Origin: Chloroflexota bacterium
Lineage (GTDB): Bacteria; Chloroflexota; Anaerolineae; Aggregatilineales; Phototrophicaceae
Length of the DNA: 50,863 nt
Direction of reading: 5' to 3'
NCBI GenBank assembly: GCA_009840575.1
Contig: VXNO01000174.1
Coordinates: 1 to 50,863, forward strand
Shown: in pieces, positions 39,315 to 47,681 of the stretch
Layout: the number at the start of each line of letters is the position of its first letter
Numbering within the stretch: position 1 is the first letter of the stretch
Position numbers and translations under genes: made by a program
The notes under the pieces: generated by a model
Seen by the model: the letters and a program-made list of their open reading frames with translations, nothing else
Database searches by the model: none
What the model was told of the DNA's origin: nothing

Positions 39315-40085
39315 CTACAGAATCTGATCCAGGAACTCTTGCGTGCGCGGATGATGAGAGATTTCGTCGCTGAAGAAGTTCTCTGGCGGACCCTGCTCGA
39401 CGATGCGCCCCATATCCATGAAGATGACGCGGTCGGCGACTTCCCGCGCGAATCCCATCTCGTGCGTAACCACCAACATCGTCATGCCGGTGCGCGCTAG
39501 CTCTTTCATAACATCCAGCACTTCTTTGATCATCTCAGGGTCTAGCGCCGAGGTCGGCTCGTCAAAGAGCATGATCTTCGGCTCCATAGCCAGGGCGCGG
39601 GCGATGGCGACGCGCTGCTGCTGGCCGCCGGAGAGTTGCCCGGGGTACTTATAGGCTTGCTCGGGGATGCCGACCCGCTCCAGCAATTCCATCGCCCGGT
39701 GTTCGGCTTTGTCGCGTGCCCAGTGCCGCACTTTCATCGGCGCAAGCGTGATATTGTCCATCACCGTCAAATGCGGGAAGAGGTTAAATTGCTGGAAGAC
39801 CATGCCGGTCTCGCGGCGGATCTCGGCGATATTCTGCACATCGTGGCTTAACTCAATGCCATCGACGATGATTGTGCCATCCTGGTGCTCTTCCAGCCGA
39901 TTGATGCAGCGGATGAAAGTGGACTTGCCCGAGCCAGAGGGTCCGATGATAACCAGCACTTCCTGCGGCATCACTTCTAGCGATATATTGCGCAAGACAT
40001 GAAATTCGCCGAACCACTTGTTCATATCGCGGCAGATGATGATTGGGTCGTCGCCCGCCATGACTTGCTTGCTGTCCGCTTCCAT
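39315..40085 (-). CDS. Amino acid ABC transporter ATP-binding protein (GlnQ/AapP-type)
   Basis: [58 protein letters not shown]. Confidence 0.96.
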
Positions 40086-40115
40086 TGTGTGCCTCCGCTT
40101 TGCTGATTGCGCGCG

Positions 40116-43100
40116 CTAGAGATATTCCGCTCGTACCGCGCCCGAGCCAGTCGCTTCTACCTTGCGGCTGATGTAGGACATAAGGTAGCTGAAGACAAAG
40201 AATATAATCGCGACATACAGGAAGGTCTCTTGACGCCGCTGCAAGTATTCGGGCTGCGCGACCACCCGTTGGGCGATGCCCAGGATCTCCGCCAAGCCCA
40301 CGATGTAGACCAGCGAGGTGTCTTTGAAGAGCGAGATAAATTGCCCGACCAGCGCCGGGATGACCGCCCGCAGCGCCTGTGGCAGCAAGATATGCAGGGT
40401 CGTCTGCCAGGTGGACAAGCCAATCGCCTGCGCCGCTTCCATCTGCCCGCGCCCGATGGACTGCAAGCCACCGCGCACATTTTCCGCCAGGTAGGCCGCG
40501 CTGAACATGGTGATGCCCACCCAGGCGCGCACCGCCCCTTCGATTGTCGCCAAGGTGGGGTCAATCAGCGGCACCAGCAACGTCGCCATGAAGAGCACCG
40601 TGATGAGTGGTACACCGCGCACCGCTTCAATGTAGAGGATGCAAGCTGTCTTGACGACCGGCAAAGAGCTGCGCCGCCCCAGCGCCAAAGCCACGCCGAT
40701 AGGGAAGGATGCGCCCACGCCCAATATCGTCAGCTGCATGGTCAGCATCAAGCCGCCCCACAGCCGCTTGTCCGATAAAGGCAGCAGGTCAGCCGCGGAG
40801 GTTTGCAGTATGCCCTGCGCTTCCAGCCCGGTGACCAGGCTCGGCACGAGCACGAGCGCCGCCAGCCAAAGCAGAAAGACAAGCGCCAAGCCCAACTGCG
40901 GGGAGCTGCCCAGCCCCCTCAGCAAGCCGCCGGCTGGCCGCTTGCGACTCTTGTACGCGCCTTGTCCAAGCTCGCCGCGTCTGAATTCATAAGCGCCCAC
41001 CGCCAGCCAAACAATGAAGAGCGCGCTTGATGCGCGGTCCAGCAATGTCCAGGTTTGCAACCACAGGAAGGTCAAGAGCAGCAAGCCAATGATGATGCGG
41101 TTGGAGTTCCACTGCAGCGCGCCGCCGAAGAACATCCAGCCCATCCAAAGCGCAAATGCCAGCGCCGCCAGCAAACTCGCCATGCCCTCGCCAGCCAGCG
41201 TGTTTGTATCAAGAACTGTAAAAAAGATAGCCAGCCAGCCGAGCAGATAACCAGCGCGCTTAACTGACAGGGGCAGATGGCTGCGCAGCAACTCGCCGAG
41301 ATGCCCCGCCAGCAAGCCCAGCGCCACCAGCCCCAGCCATAGCCCCAAAGACGAAAGCGGTTCTGTCACCCAGCCGGGCCAGACCAGGTTGATGATATGC
41401 CCGCCGAGCAGTGGCAAAAAGAAGCCGCCCGCCAGCAGCGCCGCCCCCGCCAAGCCGCCGCGGTACAGCAAGCCGATAAAGCGCATCGCCAGCAGCCACA
41501 GCAAACCCGCCAAGCCGCCGCCCAGCGCCGCGCCAGACAAACCGCCCACGCCCGATGCCATCACATACATCACAAGCGGGAAAGCCGCCCAGCTATACAG
41601 CAGCGGCCGATTCAAAGAGCCTTCCGCGTCTTCGCCCGGGTAATTGCGGATGAGCCAGGCTTCGCAGCGCCGCGCCAGTTCGACGAGGCCAAATGCCGCC
41701 GCCAACTGCAACGCGACGCGGGCGACTTCCGAAAGGCCGCCGCCAGCCACTATCGCGAAGTAAGCCAGCAAGACCAAGAGCGGCGCTAGCGCCCAAGCCA
41801 ACACAACCAGCCGATTTAGGGGCTCGTCAAATGCGCTCTGTTTGCCGAGCAGATGCGCCATGATGCGCCCAAATACAAAGCCCCAGACGACCGTGATGAA
41901 GAAGGGCAGCAGCGCCTCGACCTGCCGAAAGAATGAGGGGATAAAATGGATGAGGAAGGTCGGGAAATCACGCAAGCCGCGGAATTGATTGTCAATCAGC
42001 GCCACATAGGGGATGTTGCTGCCGTCAACCTGCGGGCGCGCTGCCGTTACCACCAGCGCATCGTCATTGACGCGCACATAACGCGATTCAGTGGGGCTGA
42101 GCGTGCGCTCGATGATGGGATGAATGCCGTAAGCAGCCAGGATGGCGCTGCCCCTGTGCCCCTCGGCGGCATTTTTGCTGAAGATGTACCAGCCGTCGCG
42201 CGGGATGGTGAATGTAACCTGGTCGCCTGCAGCGCTCAGCACGCCGTCCGCCAGCGTCTCCAGACTGCGCGCGTCGCGGATGGCGACCTGCATGGGCGTT
42301 TGCCCCAGCTGATAAAGCTCCAGCACGGATTGTGGCGTCAGCAGGCGCACGAACATGTCACGCAAGAAGGCGGCTTCGCGCGCTGACGGATTGATCAGTT
42401 TTTCTTCATCATCGCGCTGGGCGGGTTTGCCGATGAGGTCTTCGGACAAATGCAGGACCAAAAGCTCACCCAGCTCTTCCAGTTGCTCGCTGGCGAGCGT
42501 GGCGCTGGTCAAGGCGGCGAAACTGTCATGCAAATAGATGGGCAGCGCGCGGCTCACCGACAGATTCCTGATGCCGTCCTCCAGTGGCACGGCTGCGTCC
42601 AGGATGGCATCGACGTTTGGCTCGGTTGTACGGGCTGCCTCTTTGAGCCTGACCAGCCACCAGCGCAATTTTTCGATTGCCACATCGCCCTGGGTCAGCT
42701 CCGCGCCCATGCCAGCCACGAACTTGTGGGTCGAAGCCAGCATGTCGTTGGTGCGCATGAAGGTGCGGATATTGAGACGGGTGCGTTCTTCCAGCGTCTC
42801 GGTCAGCTCGCGACTTAGCATGCTGTCGAAGGTCTCGCCAACCGCATGCTGCTGTTCGATGCGGTTATTAGCGGCATTCGCCAAGGCATTGGTCCCCCGG
42901 TCGGAGAAGCCAGACAAGTCACGTAGGGTTTCTATATCGGCAACTTCGTCCAGCGCCAGGCTGACGGACACGGTTTCACCGGCCGCGGCGATGAAAGCCA
43001 GGCTGCGCTGGGGCGTCAATGTGGAGGCGCGGTCAATGATATCCACATTGCCCGCCGTAAAGTAGGATTTGGGCTGGCTGACGCCCCCGTCAATGAGCGG

Positions 43101-43508
43101 CGGCAATATCGACACCGCCACAATGACCGTCAGAGCCAGCGGCGTCAGCAAGCGCGCAGCCACCTGCCCCCAAGCCGCCAGGCTGATGCCAGTCAAAAAA
43201 GCCGCCAGCAGCACGACAATTGCCAGCCGCCATTCGTAGATACTCTCGAAGGATTCCATCATCAGCAGGCGCTGGTTGTTGATGATGGCAAACCAGTTGC
43301 CGCTTCTCACCGTCCAACCGAGGAAGCTGACCGTCAGCGCCACAATCAACAGCGCAACCAGCACGCTGACGATGGTATCACTCGGCGAGCCGAAGAGGTT
43401 TTGACGCAGCCAGCCGAGGATCCCCACTTCGGCGCGAGACGGCGGCTGTGGCGGCTCCTCGGCATGGAAGATAATAGTCTTGCTGGCGTCAACTGTAGGG
43501 TCTGTCAT
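40116..43508 (-). CDS. Amino acid ABC transporter permease (AapM-like) with very large internal insertion
   Basis: N-terminal TM region and C-terminal permease core (LWGGLMLTMQLTILGVGASFPIGVALALGRRS..., EAA loop GQMEAAQAIGLSTWQTTLHILLPQALRAVIPA); 1130 aa. Confidence 0.88.
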   Translation of the reverse strand: MTDPTVDASKTIIFHAEEPPQPPSRAEVGILGWLRQNLFGSPSDTIVSVLVALLIVALTVSFLGWTVRSGNWFAIINNQRLLMMESFESIYEWRLAIVVLLAAFLTGISLAAWGQVAARLLTPLALTVIVAVSILPPLIDGGVSQPKSYFTAGNVDIIDRASTLTPQRSLAFIAAAGETVSVSLALDEVADIETLRDLSGFSDRGTNALANAANNRIEQQHAVGETFDSMLSRELTETLEERTRLNIRTFMRTNDMLASTHKFVAGMGAELTQGDVAIEKLRWWLVRLKEAARTTEPNVDAILDAAVPLEDGIRNLSVSRALPIYLHDSFAALTSATLASEQLEELGELLVLHLSEDLIGKPAQRDDEEKLINPSAREAAFLRDMFVRLLTPQSVLELYQLGQTPMQVAIRDARSLETLADGVLSAAGDQVTFTIPRDGWYIFSKNAAEGHRGSAILAAYGIHPIIERTLSPTESRYVRVNDDALVVTAARPQVDGSNIPYVALIDNQFRGLRDFPTFLIHFIPSFFRQVEALLPFFITVVWGFVFGRIMAHLLGKQSAFDEPLNRLVVLAWALAPLLVLLAYFAIVAGGGLSEVARVALQLAAAFGLVELARRCEAWLIRNYPGEDAEGSLNRPLLYSWAAFPLVMYVMASGVGGLSGAALGGGLAGLLWLLAMRFIGLLYRGGLAGAALLAGGFFLPLLGGHIINLVWPGWVTEPLSSLGLWLGLVALGLLAGHLGELLRSHLPLSVKRAGYLLGWLAIFFTVLDTNTLAGEGMASLLAALAFALWMGWMFFGGALQWNSNRIIIGLLLLTFLWLQTWTLLDRASSALFIVWLAVGAYEFRRGELGQGAYKSRKRPAGGLLRGLGSSPQLGLALVFLLWLAALVLVPSLVTGLEAQGILQTSAADLLPLSDKRLWGGLMLTMQLTILGVGASFPIGVALALGRRSSLPVVKTACILYIEAVRGVPLITVLFMATLLVPLIDPTLATIEGAVRAWVGITMFSAAYLAENVRGGLQSIGRGQMEAAQAIGLSTWQTTLHILLPQALRAVIPALVGQFISLFKDTSLVYIVGLAEILGIAQRVVAQPEYLQRRQETFLYVAIIFFVFSYLMSYISRKVEATGSGAVRAEYL

Positions 43509-43511
43509 CGT

Positions 43512-45026
43512 CTACCTCGAAACAATTTCGAAGCGCTGATTGACCAGGTTCATCACCAAAGAAATCGCCAGGCTGATAACGAGGTAGGCCAGCAGCACCA
43601 TCAAGATGCCGGTCACGGATTGCCCGCTCTGGTTGATGATGGTGTTCGTCACCTGGAAGATATCCGTATACGATACGGCGATCGCCAGGCTGGAGTTCTT
43701 CGACAGGTTCAGGTACTGGTTGCCTAGCGGCGGGATGATGACGCGCAATGCCTGGGGCAGCACGATGCGCCGCAGCATGTCGCCTTGTGAAATGCCCAAA
43801 GCCCGCGATGCTTCCAGCTGGCCTTTGGGCACGGCTTGGATGCCAGCGCGCACGATCTCGGCGATGAAGGCGGAGGTATAGATGACCAAGCCCAAGAAAA
43901 CCGCCAGGTAGGCCGGCGAGATTTCGATGCCGGTTTCGACATTGCGACCGCGGCGGTCCAGCGTGGGCGGACGGTAGAGCAGGGGCTGGCGAGTATATTC
44001 CAGTTCCTGATCGATCGTCAGCAGCCCGGACTCAAAAGCGTCATCGTACTCCATATCAACGATGGCATCGTGGTCTTCGTTATAGACCTGGATGACTGAG
44101 GGCGTCGGCAGCATGCCAACGATCAGCCAGCCCAACAGCGTAAAACCGGCCACGCTAATCACAATGGCGCTGGTGCGCGGAGTAGGCCGCCCGGTCGAAT
44201 CGGTGATGAAGTGGAGGTAACGCCAAAGCGCCGCCGCCACGAGGATGCCAATCACCACAAAGACCATCCACACGCCAAACAGCGCTGATGGAAGCAGCTC
44301 GAAGAGAGCCACGCCCTTGATGCTGATGTAGATGGCGGGCAGCAACTCGACCGGTGTGCCGCTGCTGACCAGTTCGATGCCCAGCAGATTGACCAGGATG
44401 ATGATGGCGACGCCGCCTTCGCGCGCCAATATGCGCCAGGATTTGCGCCGCAAGCTGCCGCTGAGACGCCAAATGCCAACCAAAACGACCAGCGAAAGGG
44501 CATATTGCAGCAGGGGCAGCGAGCGTATGCCTTCTTGTGGCAGCTCGATCGATTCTTGCTGCGGCGGCAGGGCGAAAAGAACCACAAAATACCAGGTGAA
44601 TATCTGCAAGAGCACCGGCGTATTGCGCAGCACTTCGACATAAACGCGCGAGATGCTGCGCACCAGGAAGTTGTTATTCAGCAGCAGCACGCCCACCAAC
44701 ATGCCCAGGATGGTCGTCGCCACCAGCCCCACTGACACAACGCGCAGGGTATTGATAAAGCCGACGCGAAAGGCGTCAACATAGCGGTCGTTGGAGGAAT
44801 AACTGCCCGAGTCAGCGATATTGAAGCCGGCGCGGTTTTGGAGAAATTCAAAATTGGGGCTTTGGTTGGTCGCGTCCAAAGCGGAATTGATGCGCAGAGC
44901 CAGGTCGTTGAATACGATGACCACGACCAGGACAAACACGATCTGGGCGATGCCTTGCAAGATGCGCCCGTCGCGCAAGAGCGCAGGCAAGATCTTGACG
45001 CCTTGTGGGGGGGGTACATTTTCCAT
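43512..45026 (-). CDS. Amino acid ABC transporter permease (AapQ-like)
   Basis: LRNTPVLLQIFTWYFVVLFALP; GQLEASRALGISQGDMLRRIVLPQALRVIIPPLGNQYLNLSKNSSLA. Confidence 0.93.
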   Translation of the reverse strand: MENVPPPQGVKILPALLRDGRILQGIAQIVFVLVVVIVFNDLALRINSALDATNQSPNFEFLQNRAGFNIADSGSYSSNDRYVDAFRVGFINTLRVVSVGLVATTILGMLVGVLLLNNNFLVRSISRVYVEVLRNTPVLLQIFTWYFVVLFALPPQQESIELPQEGIRSLPLLQYALSLVVLVGIWRLSGSLRRKSWRILAREGGVAIIILVNLLGIELVSSGTPVELLPAIYISIKGVALFELLPSALFGVWMVFVVIGILVAAALWRYLHFITDSTGRPTPRTSAIVISVAGFTLLGWLIVGMLPTPSVIQVYNEDHDAIVDMEYDDAFESGLLTIDQELEYTRQPLLYRPPTLDRRGRNVETGIEISPAYLAVFLGLVIYTSAFIAEIVRAGIQAVPKGQLEASRALGISQGDMLRRIVLPQALRVIIPPLGNQYLNLSKNSSLAIAVSYTDIFQVTNTIINQSGQSVTGILMVLLAYLVISLAISLVMNLVNQRFEIVSR

Positions 45027-45218
45027 CGGCGCACTCAGACCAGTATGCTGCGTGGGCAGAGATTAACCAGATTGGCTGGACATTTCGCAGCGCTTCGCCA
45101 GCCCCAACAAGCACAAACAAAACCAGAAACTTCACTTAAGAAAATAAAGCTGTCACAGGGGCATATCGCTGGAAAGGCGACATGCCCCGTGGTCAAACTT
45201 GACGAAAACCGTTTCGAT

Positions 45219-46259
45219 CTAACGGAAGGGAGAGGCGTAGAGCAAGCCGCCGTCCGTCCACAGCGCGTTGACGCCACGATCCAAACCAAAGATCGTGTCC
45301 TTGCCCAGGTGGCGCTCGAAGACCTCGCCATAATTGCCGATTTGGCTGATGACATCAACCATAAAGCCATCGTTGATGCCGAAGTATTCGCCGGCGACAT
45401 TATCGCCCAAGCCCAGCAAGCGCCCGATGCCAGCATCTTCGCTGTCCATGTAATCGCCGACGTTCATGCTGTTGATGCCCAGCTCTTCGGCAGTCATCAT
45501 GCCCCAGACCGTCCAGCGGACGATATCAGCGAAGGTCGCGTCGCTCTGCGGGCTGACCGGCCCAAGCGGCTCCTTGCTGATTACTTCGGGCAGGATCAGA
45601 TGCGCGGCGGGATCGGTAGAAGTCGCCTTGCGAGAGACGAGGCTGCTCACATCGCTGGTGAAGGCATCGCAAGCGCCCGCTTCATAGGCATCCATGATCG
45701 CGTCGAAATCCTGGAAAGTGCTCAGTTCCCAATCGGCGCCCAAGGCGTTCTCCGTGTCGGTGATGTTGAGCTCGGTGGTCGTGCCGGCCGTGGCACACAT
45801 GGTGATGCTCTCTTCGCCGAGTTCAGCAAGGTTGGTGATGCCGAGATCAACCTTGACCATAATGCCCTGCCCGTCATAAAAGGTGGTGGGGCCGAAAGTG
45901 GCACCCCATTCAGTATCGCGGCTGAGCGTCCAGGTGGTGTTGCGGACGAGCAAGTCAATCTCGCCGCCCGCCATCGCCGTCGGTCGTTCCGCAGCCGTCA
46001 AGGGGCGGAAGCCCACAGCGTCCGCATCGCCCAGCACAGCGGCAGCCACAGCGCGGCAGAAATCGACATCAAAGCCAACAAAGTCGCCGGCATCGTTCTG
46101 CGTGCCAAAGCCCGGCAGCACTGTGTTGACACCACAGAGCAGTTCGCCGCGTTCCATGATGCGCTCAACGATGTGCCCATCGTCTTGCGCCATAGCCAGC
46201 CCGCTGCCCAGCGCCAGCAAGCTGATGACGACAAGCGCGAATACAATATAGCGTTTCAT
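45219..46259 (-). CDS. Amino acid ABC transporter substrate-binding protein (AapJ-like)
   Basis: Signal peptide MKRYIVFALVVISLLALGSGLAMAQ; RGELLCGVNTVLPGFGTQNDAGDFVGFDVDFCRAVAAAVLGD. Confidence 0.94.
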   Translation of the reverse strand: MKRYIVFALVVISLLALGSGLAMAQDDGHIVERIMERGELLCGVNTVLPGFGTQNDAGDFVGFDVDFCRAVAAAVLGDADAVGFRPLTAAERPTAMAGGEIDLLVRNTTWTLSRDTEWGATFGPTTFYDGQGIMVKVDLGITNLAELGEESITMCATAGTTTELNITDTENALGADWELSTFQDFDAIMDAYEAGACDAFTSDVSSLVSRKATSTDPAAHLILPEVISKEPLGPVSPQSDATFADIVRWTVWGMMTAEELGINSMNVGDYMDSEDAGIGRLLGLGDNVAGEYFGINDGFMVDVISQIGNYGEVFERHLGKDTIFGLDRGVNALWTDGGLLYASPFR

Positions 46260-46369
46260 TCCTTCACTCTCCTTTAGCTGTTGATAATGTACGAACCGAG
46301 CCAGATGAATCCATGCACAGCTCACAACTCCATTATAGCCAGAATCAGTCTATAGTTGTCAAGCGATTC

Positions 46370-46412
46370 AAAAAAAGACCGGACTGACAAGACATGGCTG
46401 TCAGAACGGTCT
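46370..46412 (-). terminator. Rho-independent terminator downstream of the selW-like gene
   Basis: Minus strand AGACCG-TT-CTGACA-loop-TGTCAG-TC-CGGTCT followed by T-tract (plus strand caaaaaagaccg...cggtct). Confidence 0.85.
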
Positions 46413-46437: not shown

Positions 46438-46731
46438 TTAGCTGGCGGCCATCTCTACATCGGCGGGGCGGATTTTCTCCAAGGCTGCGCCTATCGCGGC
46501 GCGGATTTCACCCGGCTCGGCATGGCGTCCGACTTCTTTCTTGCAAAAGACGCGCTCGCCATTGACCCAAACATCAAATACGCCGCCGCTGCCCGGCACC
46601 AATTTCCAGCTGCTGATGTAATACTCGATCTCGCGCTCGTTCAAGATTTCGTCCGTCAAACTGACGGCTTGGGGTTGGTGCCCTCAAGCGGCGCAGTATT
46701 CGACGACGATGTCCATGATCCCATTTTGCAT
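46438..46731 (-). CDS. SelW/Rdx (SelT/SelW/SelH) family selenoprotein, TGA at 46684-46686 read as selenocysteine
   Basis: MQNGIMDIVVEYCAA(U)GHQPQAVSLTDEILNEREIEYYISSWKLVPGSGGVFDVWVNGERVFCKKEVGRHAEPGEIRAAIGAALEKIRPADVEMAAS; CxxU at the canonical redox position; AGGAGAG SD upstream of ATG 46731. ORF track only shows the truncated 46438..46659. Confidence 0.87.
46653..46667 (-). promoter_or_regulatory. Putative bacterial SECIS hairpin
   Basis: CCGTC-AGTTT-GACGG; 21 nt between TGA and loop; G in first two loop positions. Confidence 0.75.
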
Positions 46732-46898
46732 GACACACTCTCCTTCATAGCAACTCGTTTCTTTCGACACTTTGAATGTAGCACAGTGTGGCTGGATTTA
46801 CAAGCGCGGAGGGCAAAGTGAGCGCCGAGCCGATTGTCTACCCTGCAGTCCTATACTAAAATTAGTTTCTTGACTTATTTTCCAGAAAGGGCTTGTAT

Positions 46899-47681
46899 AT
46901 GAAGCTGAAGTCGCATTGGCTATTACCCATCCCTGCGCTTCGCTGCTGCCTGGCGCTTGCGCTGCTGTTCATCACCAGCATATCCGCGCTGGCGCAGTTT
47001 GATACGCTGTCTGACGAGGATCGGTGCTTCTTGGGGCAGACCGAGTTTTGTCCTGGCGCGCCGGAAGCGGAAGAGGAAACTGAGGAAAAAGCTGAGAATC
47101 AGGAAAGCGCCGAAAAAGAAACCGTCAGCGTTGAGCGCGAGCTCAGGTCAAATTGCCCCGACCTCCTCGCCGGTGTGGTTGTCTCCGGCTATAGTGCACA
47201 GACATTCTGCCAGATCGTGAGCGTTGCCGGCCTCGGGCGGATTGATGAACTCCCCGATGACATTATCATCGCCGTCGATGTTTGGGGTTTTGTACCGCCA
47301 GGCGTCGAAGTTTGCTTCCTGCAAAATGGCAGCCTGGCGTTCCTCGACGCTGATTACTCGCCACGCGAATTGCGCGATATGGAAGCCTACCAGCGCGATG
47401 GCATGACCTGCGGCACGATCAACAAGCATGGCACAGTCGTACTGTTTGCTGCTTCTCAGCCGAGCAGCGAAGACGTCGCGGTGGGAGATTGCCAGATTAA
47501 GGTGACGGGCTCGCTCTACTTGCGTGCGGAACCAGCCGGCGAGATCCTCGATATTGTCTGGCTCCATTCGGAAGTGCCGGTACTGGCAACGAATGGCAAG
47601 TGGTTCAAGGTCACATTTGAAGGGCAGACCGGCTACGTCACCCGCAGATACCACCGGGTTCTGCGTGGCAACTGCGGCTAA
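46899..47681 (+). CDS. Secreted hypothetical protein with C-terminal bacterial SH3-like domain
   Basis: Signal peptide CLALALLFITSISALAQ; acidic linker; CQIKVTGSLYLRAEPAGEILDIVWLHSEVPVLATNGKWFKVTFEGQTGYVTRRY. Confidence 0.75.
   Translation: MKLKSHWLLPIPALRCCLALALLFITSISALAQFDTLSDEDRCFLGQTEFCPGAPEAEEETEEKAENQESAEKETVSVERELRSNCPDLLAGVVVSGYSAQTFCQIVSVAGLGRIDELPDDIIIAVDVWGFVPPGVEVCFLQNGSLAFLDADYSPRELRDMEAYQRDGMTCGTINKHGTVVLFAASQPSSEDVAVGDCQIKVTGSLYLRAEPAGEILDIVWLHSEVPVLATNGKWFKVTFEGQTGYVTRRYHRVLRGNCG

Follow-up and report, generated by a model that had tools for sequence, protein, structure and literature searches.

A SelW-like gene with a conserved in-frame TGA and a covarying bSECIS-type hairpin in an Anaerolineae-type Chloroflexota genome

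The selW-like gene, its product and its surroundings

We examined a stretch of 50,863 nucleotides (the window) from the 3.46-Mb draft genome of an Anaerolineae-type Chloroflexota bacterium (190 contigs, estimated to be 94.7% complete). The following features lie in and around a short minus-strand gene near one end of the window.

46438..46731, minus: selW-like (Rdx) gene of 97 codons and a TAA, in which codon 16 is a TGA predicted to encode selenocysteine (Sec); the ATG, TGA and length are conserved in relatives
46738..46744, minus: Shine-Dalgarno-like stretch AGGAGAG, read from the sequence; similar stretches precede the ATG in relatives
46693..46695, minus: TGC codon for Cys13, the other redox residue of the CxxU motif
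46684..46686, minus: in-frame TGA (codon 16), second position of C-A-A-U, predicted to be read as Sec
46653..46667, minus: bSECIS-type hairpin CCGUCA-GUU-UGACGG, loop 46661-46659, opening with G
46370..46411, minus: likely intrinsic terminator after the selW-like gene, a long hairpin followed by seven T (−19.9 kcal/mol, z −4.0)
39315-46325, minus: amino-acid-type ABC transporter genes (SBP_bac_3, two permeases and an ATPase), downstream on the same strand
46893..47681, plus: divergent reading frame with a below-cutoff SH3_3 match, upstream of the selW-like gene, with leuS beyond

The gene runs from an ATG at 46731 to a TAA at 46438 and, with TGA as U, gives a product of 97 residues (MQNGIMDIVVEYCAAUGHQPQAVSLTDEILNE...EMAAS). 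The initial annotation had described the AGGAGAG stretch, this ATG, the TGA at codon 16 and a continuation in the same frame, all of which we found in the sequence, the frame ending at the TAA; it was also right that the open reading frame (ORF) track holds nothing here except a 73-amino-acid minus-strand ORF. Without read-through, the called ORF comprises codons 25 to 97 only, from a TTG at 46659, so that ORF calling that ends at TGA splits the gene, and a short real gene is missed. In close relatives the position of the ATG is conserved, and a Shine-Dalgarno-like stretch precedes it.

The assignment to the Rdx family, made beforehand from the sequence, passed the profile searches. The read-through protein matches Pfam Rdx (PF10262) with 54 bits over residues 8 to 80 (cutoff, 22.6) and the NCBIfam model TIGR02174, "CXXU_selWTH," with 43 bits (cutoff, 34.2); models that recognize the read-through protein thus already exist in both collections. 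The top NCBIfam score, 70.4 bits, is that of the equivalog NF041051 (SelTWH_Campy), and since it stays below the cutoff of 88, the protein does not fall into that narrower group. The part after the TGA scores 30.9 bits against Pfam Rdx by itself, and the gain to 54 bits upon read-through shows that the domain includes the 15 codons preceding the TGA. This comparison bears directly on the idea that the real product is the 73-residue protein from the downstream TTG, with the upstream part not cotranslated. Such a product is what a caller ending at TGA lists, but both strand 1 and the CxxU motif would be missing from it. Codons 8 to 15 lie within the Pfam domain, the upstream ATG and the ribosome-binding stretch are conserved, and the TTG lies inside the hairpin. 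We therefore rejected this idea and give it a very small probability.

In a structure model of moderate confidence (mean pLDDT, 66), the motif C13-A-A-U16 of the selW-like protein sits between strand 1 (E6-13) and helix 1 (H19-30). With this model as the query, Foldseek recovered a thioredoxin-like Rdx fold: solved SelW-related structures rank first (top matches 2fa8, 3dex, 2ojl, 2obk and 2p0g, with TM values of 0.6 to 0.78), and mouse SelW (2npb) is also among the matches. The Rdx family is considered to consist of thiol-based oxidoreductases of as yet undefined precise function (PMC10650576). The product of the window gene is probably a small thiol/selenol oxidoreductase.

Inspection of the sequence, together with folding, revealed the likely terminator at 46370..46411; a simple promoter/terminator scan, which requires an uninterrupted stem, did not list it and returned nothing useful for the selW-like gene. 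Because the terminator separates the gene from the transporter, the selW-like gene is probably transcribed alone. In many of the relatives, too, the selW-like gene is flanked by leuS on one side and by permease and solute-binding genes on the other, which fits vertical descent, and we draw no functional link from it. One of the permeases (40116-43508, minus strand; 1,130 amino acids) matches BPD_transp_1 at residues 935 to 1114 only; its long N-terminal part is rich in hydrophobic stretches and has no Pfam match at the threshold used.

Conservation of the TGA and of the hairpin that follows it

The public genome set yielded 31 relatives, mostly titled as Anaerolineae or Chloroflexi/Chloroflexota metagenome-assembled genomes. 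In 30 of these the alignment begins at the ATG, and every one carries TGA as codon 16; the match of the 31st, from Promineifilum, begins further in and has the TGA too. Among 200 genomes of the class, 85 contain matches to the selW-like protein. Taking together the public relatives, the window locus and the class matches—a few of which may be one genome present in two collections—the aligned codon 16 position is TGA in 113 of 117 homologous places and a Cys codon in the other 4, so that Sec and Cys exchange among the homologues, and the first Cys of the motif is kept in every TGA form (113/113). The claim that TGA, rather than TGC or TGT, occupies the second Rdx Cys position (C-A-A-U) is thereby borne out.

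The same data bear on the possibility that an ordinary Rdx gene of the Cys type acquired the TGA through a random nonsense mutation or a sequencing error. Rdx proteins with Cys are common, and the window is a single contig of a 190-contig draft; yet the TGA recurs in those 113 places in many genomes and families, in independent assemblies, and both the protein on either side of it and the hairpin are conserved. We accordingly rejected this possibility, whose probability we put at close to nil, in agreement with the initial annotation, which had argued against a random nonsense mutation from the position, the motif and the conservation on both sides. A scan of the window for frames bounded by TAA/TAG that contain one in-frame TGA close to a Cys/Ser/Thr/Gly-type motif also returned ten others; judged by eye, these look like shadow frames.

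The nucleotides after the TGA, where the initial annotation had pointed for a SECIS element, contain a bSECIS-type hairpin with strong covariation. It starts 17 nt after the TGA and has a 6-bp stem and a 3-nt loop, with 22 nt from the UGA to the loop. The published bSECIS model asks for (i) a loop of 3 to 9 nt, (ii) a stem of 4 to 16 bp, (iii) a G in the first two loop positions, (iv) a distance of 16 to 37 nt from the UGA and (v) a minimum free energy of at most −7.5 kcal/mol (PMC13188914), and the hairpin agrees with every one of these constraints, with G as the first loop base and −7.8 kcal/mol. By itself it folds better than shuffled sequences (z −3.4); the whole 48-nt stretch reaches −12.0 kcal/mol, which is no better than shuffles (z −1.05). 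A search of the window with the Rfam gathering thresholds gave no matches, which is a weak test for so short a hairpin.

Across 101 distinct sequences, 95% of the pair cells hold standard pairs, and every sequence has G as the first base of the loop. Versions of the hairpin shifted on the same axis are 83% and 72% paired, and all other 6-bp hairpins scanned in the 48 nt reach at most 70%, so that the observed hairpin is the best. When the alignment is reduced to 61 nonredundant rows, pairing is 93.7%, compared to 85.9% with the partners shuffled, and none of 5,000 shuffles was as high. In 20 diverse rows, 96.7% of the cells are paired, compared to 80.9% in shuffles, although these rows were hand-chosen for diversity and the all-row figure (95%) is the fairer number; here, five of the six pairs show compensatory changes on both sides, and sliding the partner lowers pairing to between 21 and 52.5%. 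In 13% of the sequences the A-U pair that closes the loop is disrupted, and the loop may be 5 nt long there. In codons 21 to 28, which lie over the hairpin, synonymous sites are nearly frozen among close relatives (0.98, compared to a gene mean of 0.64), and an equally frozen six-codon stretch arose in 5 of 100,000 codon-position permutations (5e-5). The alignment offers a clear example of covariation in a short bacterial SECIS element.

Selenocysteine machinery and the decoding of codon 16

The initial annotation had made its reading depend on selA, selB, selD and selC, and all four are present in the source genome: selA with 549.7 bits, selB with 341 bits in a 706-amino-acid frame, selD with 386.4 bits and tRNA-Sec with 65.6 bits against the Rfam tRNA-Sec model. 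A second match above the cutoff of that model (49.9 bits) is a tRNA-Ser, and the Rfam score by itself is therefore insufficient for a tRNA-Sec call; ARAGORN also classifies the 65.6-bit gene as tRNA-Sec, with anticodon TCA (UCA). The selD gene (locus L018, C65:24255-25190) has one internal TGA of its own, in the context NCAGU, and the SelD of this genome is probably itself a selenoprotein.

Could the TGA encode another amino acid, either by reassignment or by near-cognate read-through as Trp or Cys? Read-through alone would likewise conserve the frame, but the neighboring genes are long open frames under table 11, and the Sec pathway of the genome is complete, with a tRNA-Sec among its components; furthermore, the TGA stands at the redox Cys position, alternates with Cys codons only and is followed by a bSECIS-type hairpin. 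We rejected such decoding, which we regard as very improbable.

We instead hold with high confidence that the minus-strand frame 46731..46438 is a SelW-like (Rdx family) selenoprotein gene whose UGA at codon 16 is decoded as Sec by means of SelB and the hairpin. By analogy with the established bacterial mechanism, Sec would be made by SelA on tRNA-Sec (selC), with selenophosphate supplied by SelD; SelB would deliver the charged tRNA-Sec to the UGA at codon 16 because it would bind the hairpin that starts 17 nt after it; and translation would continue past the UGA to the TAA. The gene, its motif, its conservation, the covariation of the hairpin and the complete insertion machinery were all computed directly, and the predicted Sec insertion at codon 16 is very well supported by the conservation of the TGA, the covariation, the machinery and a Cys form without the hairpin in a relative, the genome G146.

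Cys forms and comparison with known selenoproteins

G146 is 95% complete and belongs to the same taxonomic family as the source genome. It has no SelA match and no SelB over the cutoff, and its best match to the tRNA-Sec model is a tRNA-Ser; its selW-like homologue has TGT at the position in question and two of the six hairpin pairs left. In the protein tree, which rests on 87 columns for 113 rows and resolves the place of the Cys rows in part, the G146 form adjoins the clade of the window gene (93/85) on a long branch with few columns, a position that fits, and does not prove, a change from Sec to Cys. In G083 and G107, two other relatives that lack SelA, the selW-like protein finds no match.

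SelA exceeds the cutoff in 173 of the 200 sampled genomes of the class. At an E value of ≤0.001, 81 of the 82 genomes with a TGA form have a SelA match, compared to 101 of the 118 others (Fisher p = 8e-4, from counts made by hand and with kinship ignored). The TGA-form genome without SelA (G132) is 86% complete, and two more (G047 and G002) have weak or partial SelA matches; most simply, these cases reflect incomplete assemblies.

SelW-like CxxU proteins are among the listed bacterial selenoprotein families (PMC9312934), and in an ocean survey they are the family with the most selenoprotein sequences (PMC2398784). A 2006 survey had already described Cys homologues of SelW-like proteins as rare or absent in organisms that use Sec and, in its Table 2, credits the Chloroflexi with only three selenoproteins in three families (PMC1794560). 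The window gene shares with the bacterial SelW-like selenoproteins the domain (pfam10262, Rdx), the size, the CxxU motif and a UGA directly followed by a bSECIS-type hairpin, with no difference in kind; the window copy comes from an Anaerolineae-type Chloroflexota lineage. With eukaryotic SELENOW it shares CxxU, the thioredoxin-like fold and a GxF[DE]V-type motif (GGVFDV in the window protein; consensus from PMC10650576), whereas the SECIS element of SELENOW lies in the 3′ untranslated region and that of the window gene is part of the coding sequence, directly behind the UGA. The 14-3-3 protein, a partner of mammalian SELENOW, belongs to the eukaryotic setting (PMC10650576). It is well supported that the window gene belongs to an already known, common bacterial selenoprotein family, to which it is an unsurprising addition; the useful detail is its spread in the Chloroflexota, the strength of the covariation and the occurrence of a Cys form in a relative free of the machinery. 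A limited literature search returned no description of these three points, which is not proof of absence.

For these Chloroflexota we lean slightly toward a scenario in which the Sec form is ancestral and almost the only form, with one very conserved minimal bSECIS element (CCGUCA-GUU-UGACGG type) across the class, and gave way to a Cys form, while the hairpin decayed, in the lineage of G146, from which the whole Sec machinery was lost. If this is true, the family would offer an unusually clean set for the study of Sec-to-Cys replacement and of coevolution between SelB and the hairpin. Within a single taxonomic family, the Sec form and the Cys form match the presence and the absence of the machinery, providing a testable natural experiment on Sec retention in a class that is large and mostly uncultured and has SelA in most sampled genomes. 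Three further Cys-form homologues (L124, L130 and L132) come from genomes with SelA; in L132, a GC-rich, hairpin-like stretch occupies the position of the hairpin, which may be due to chance.
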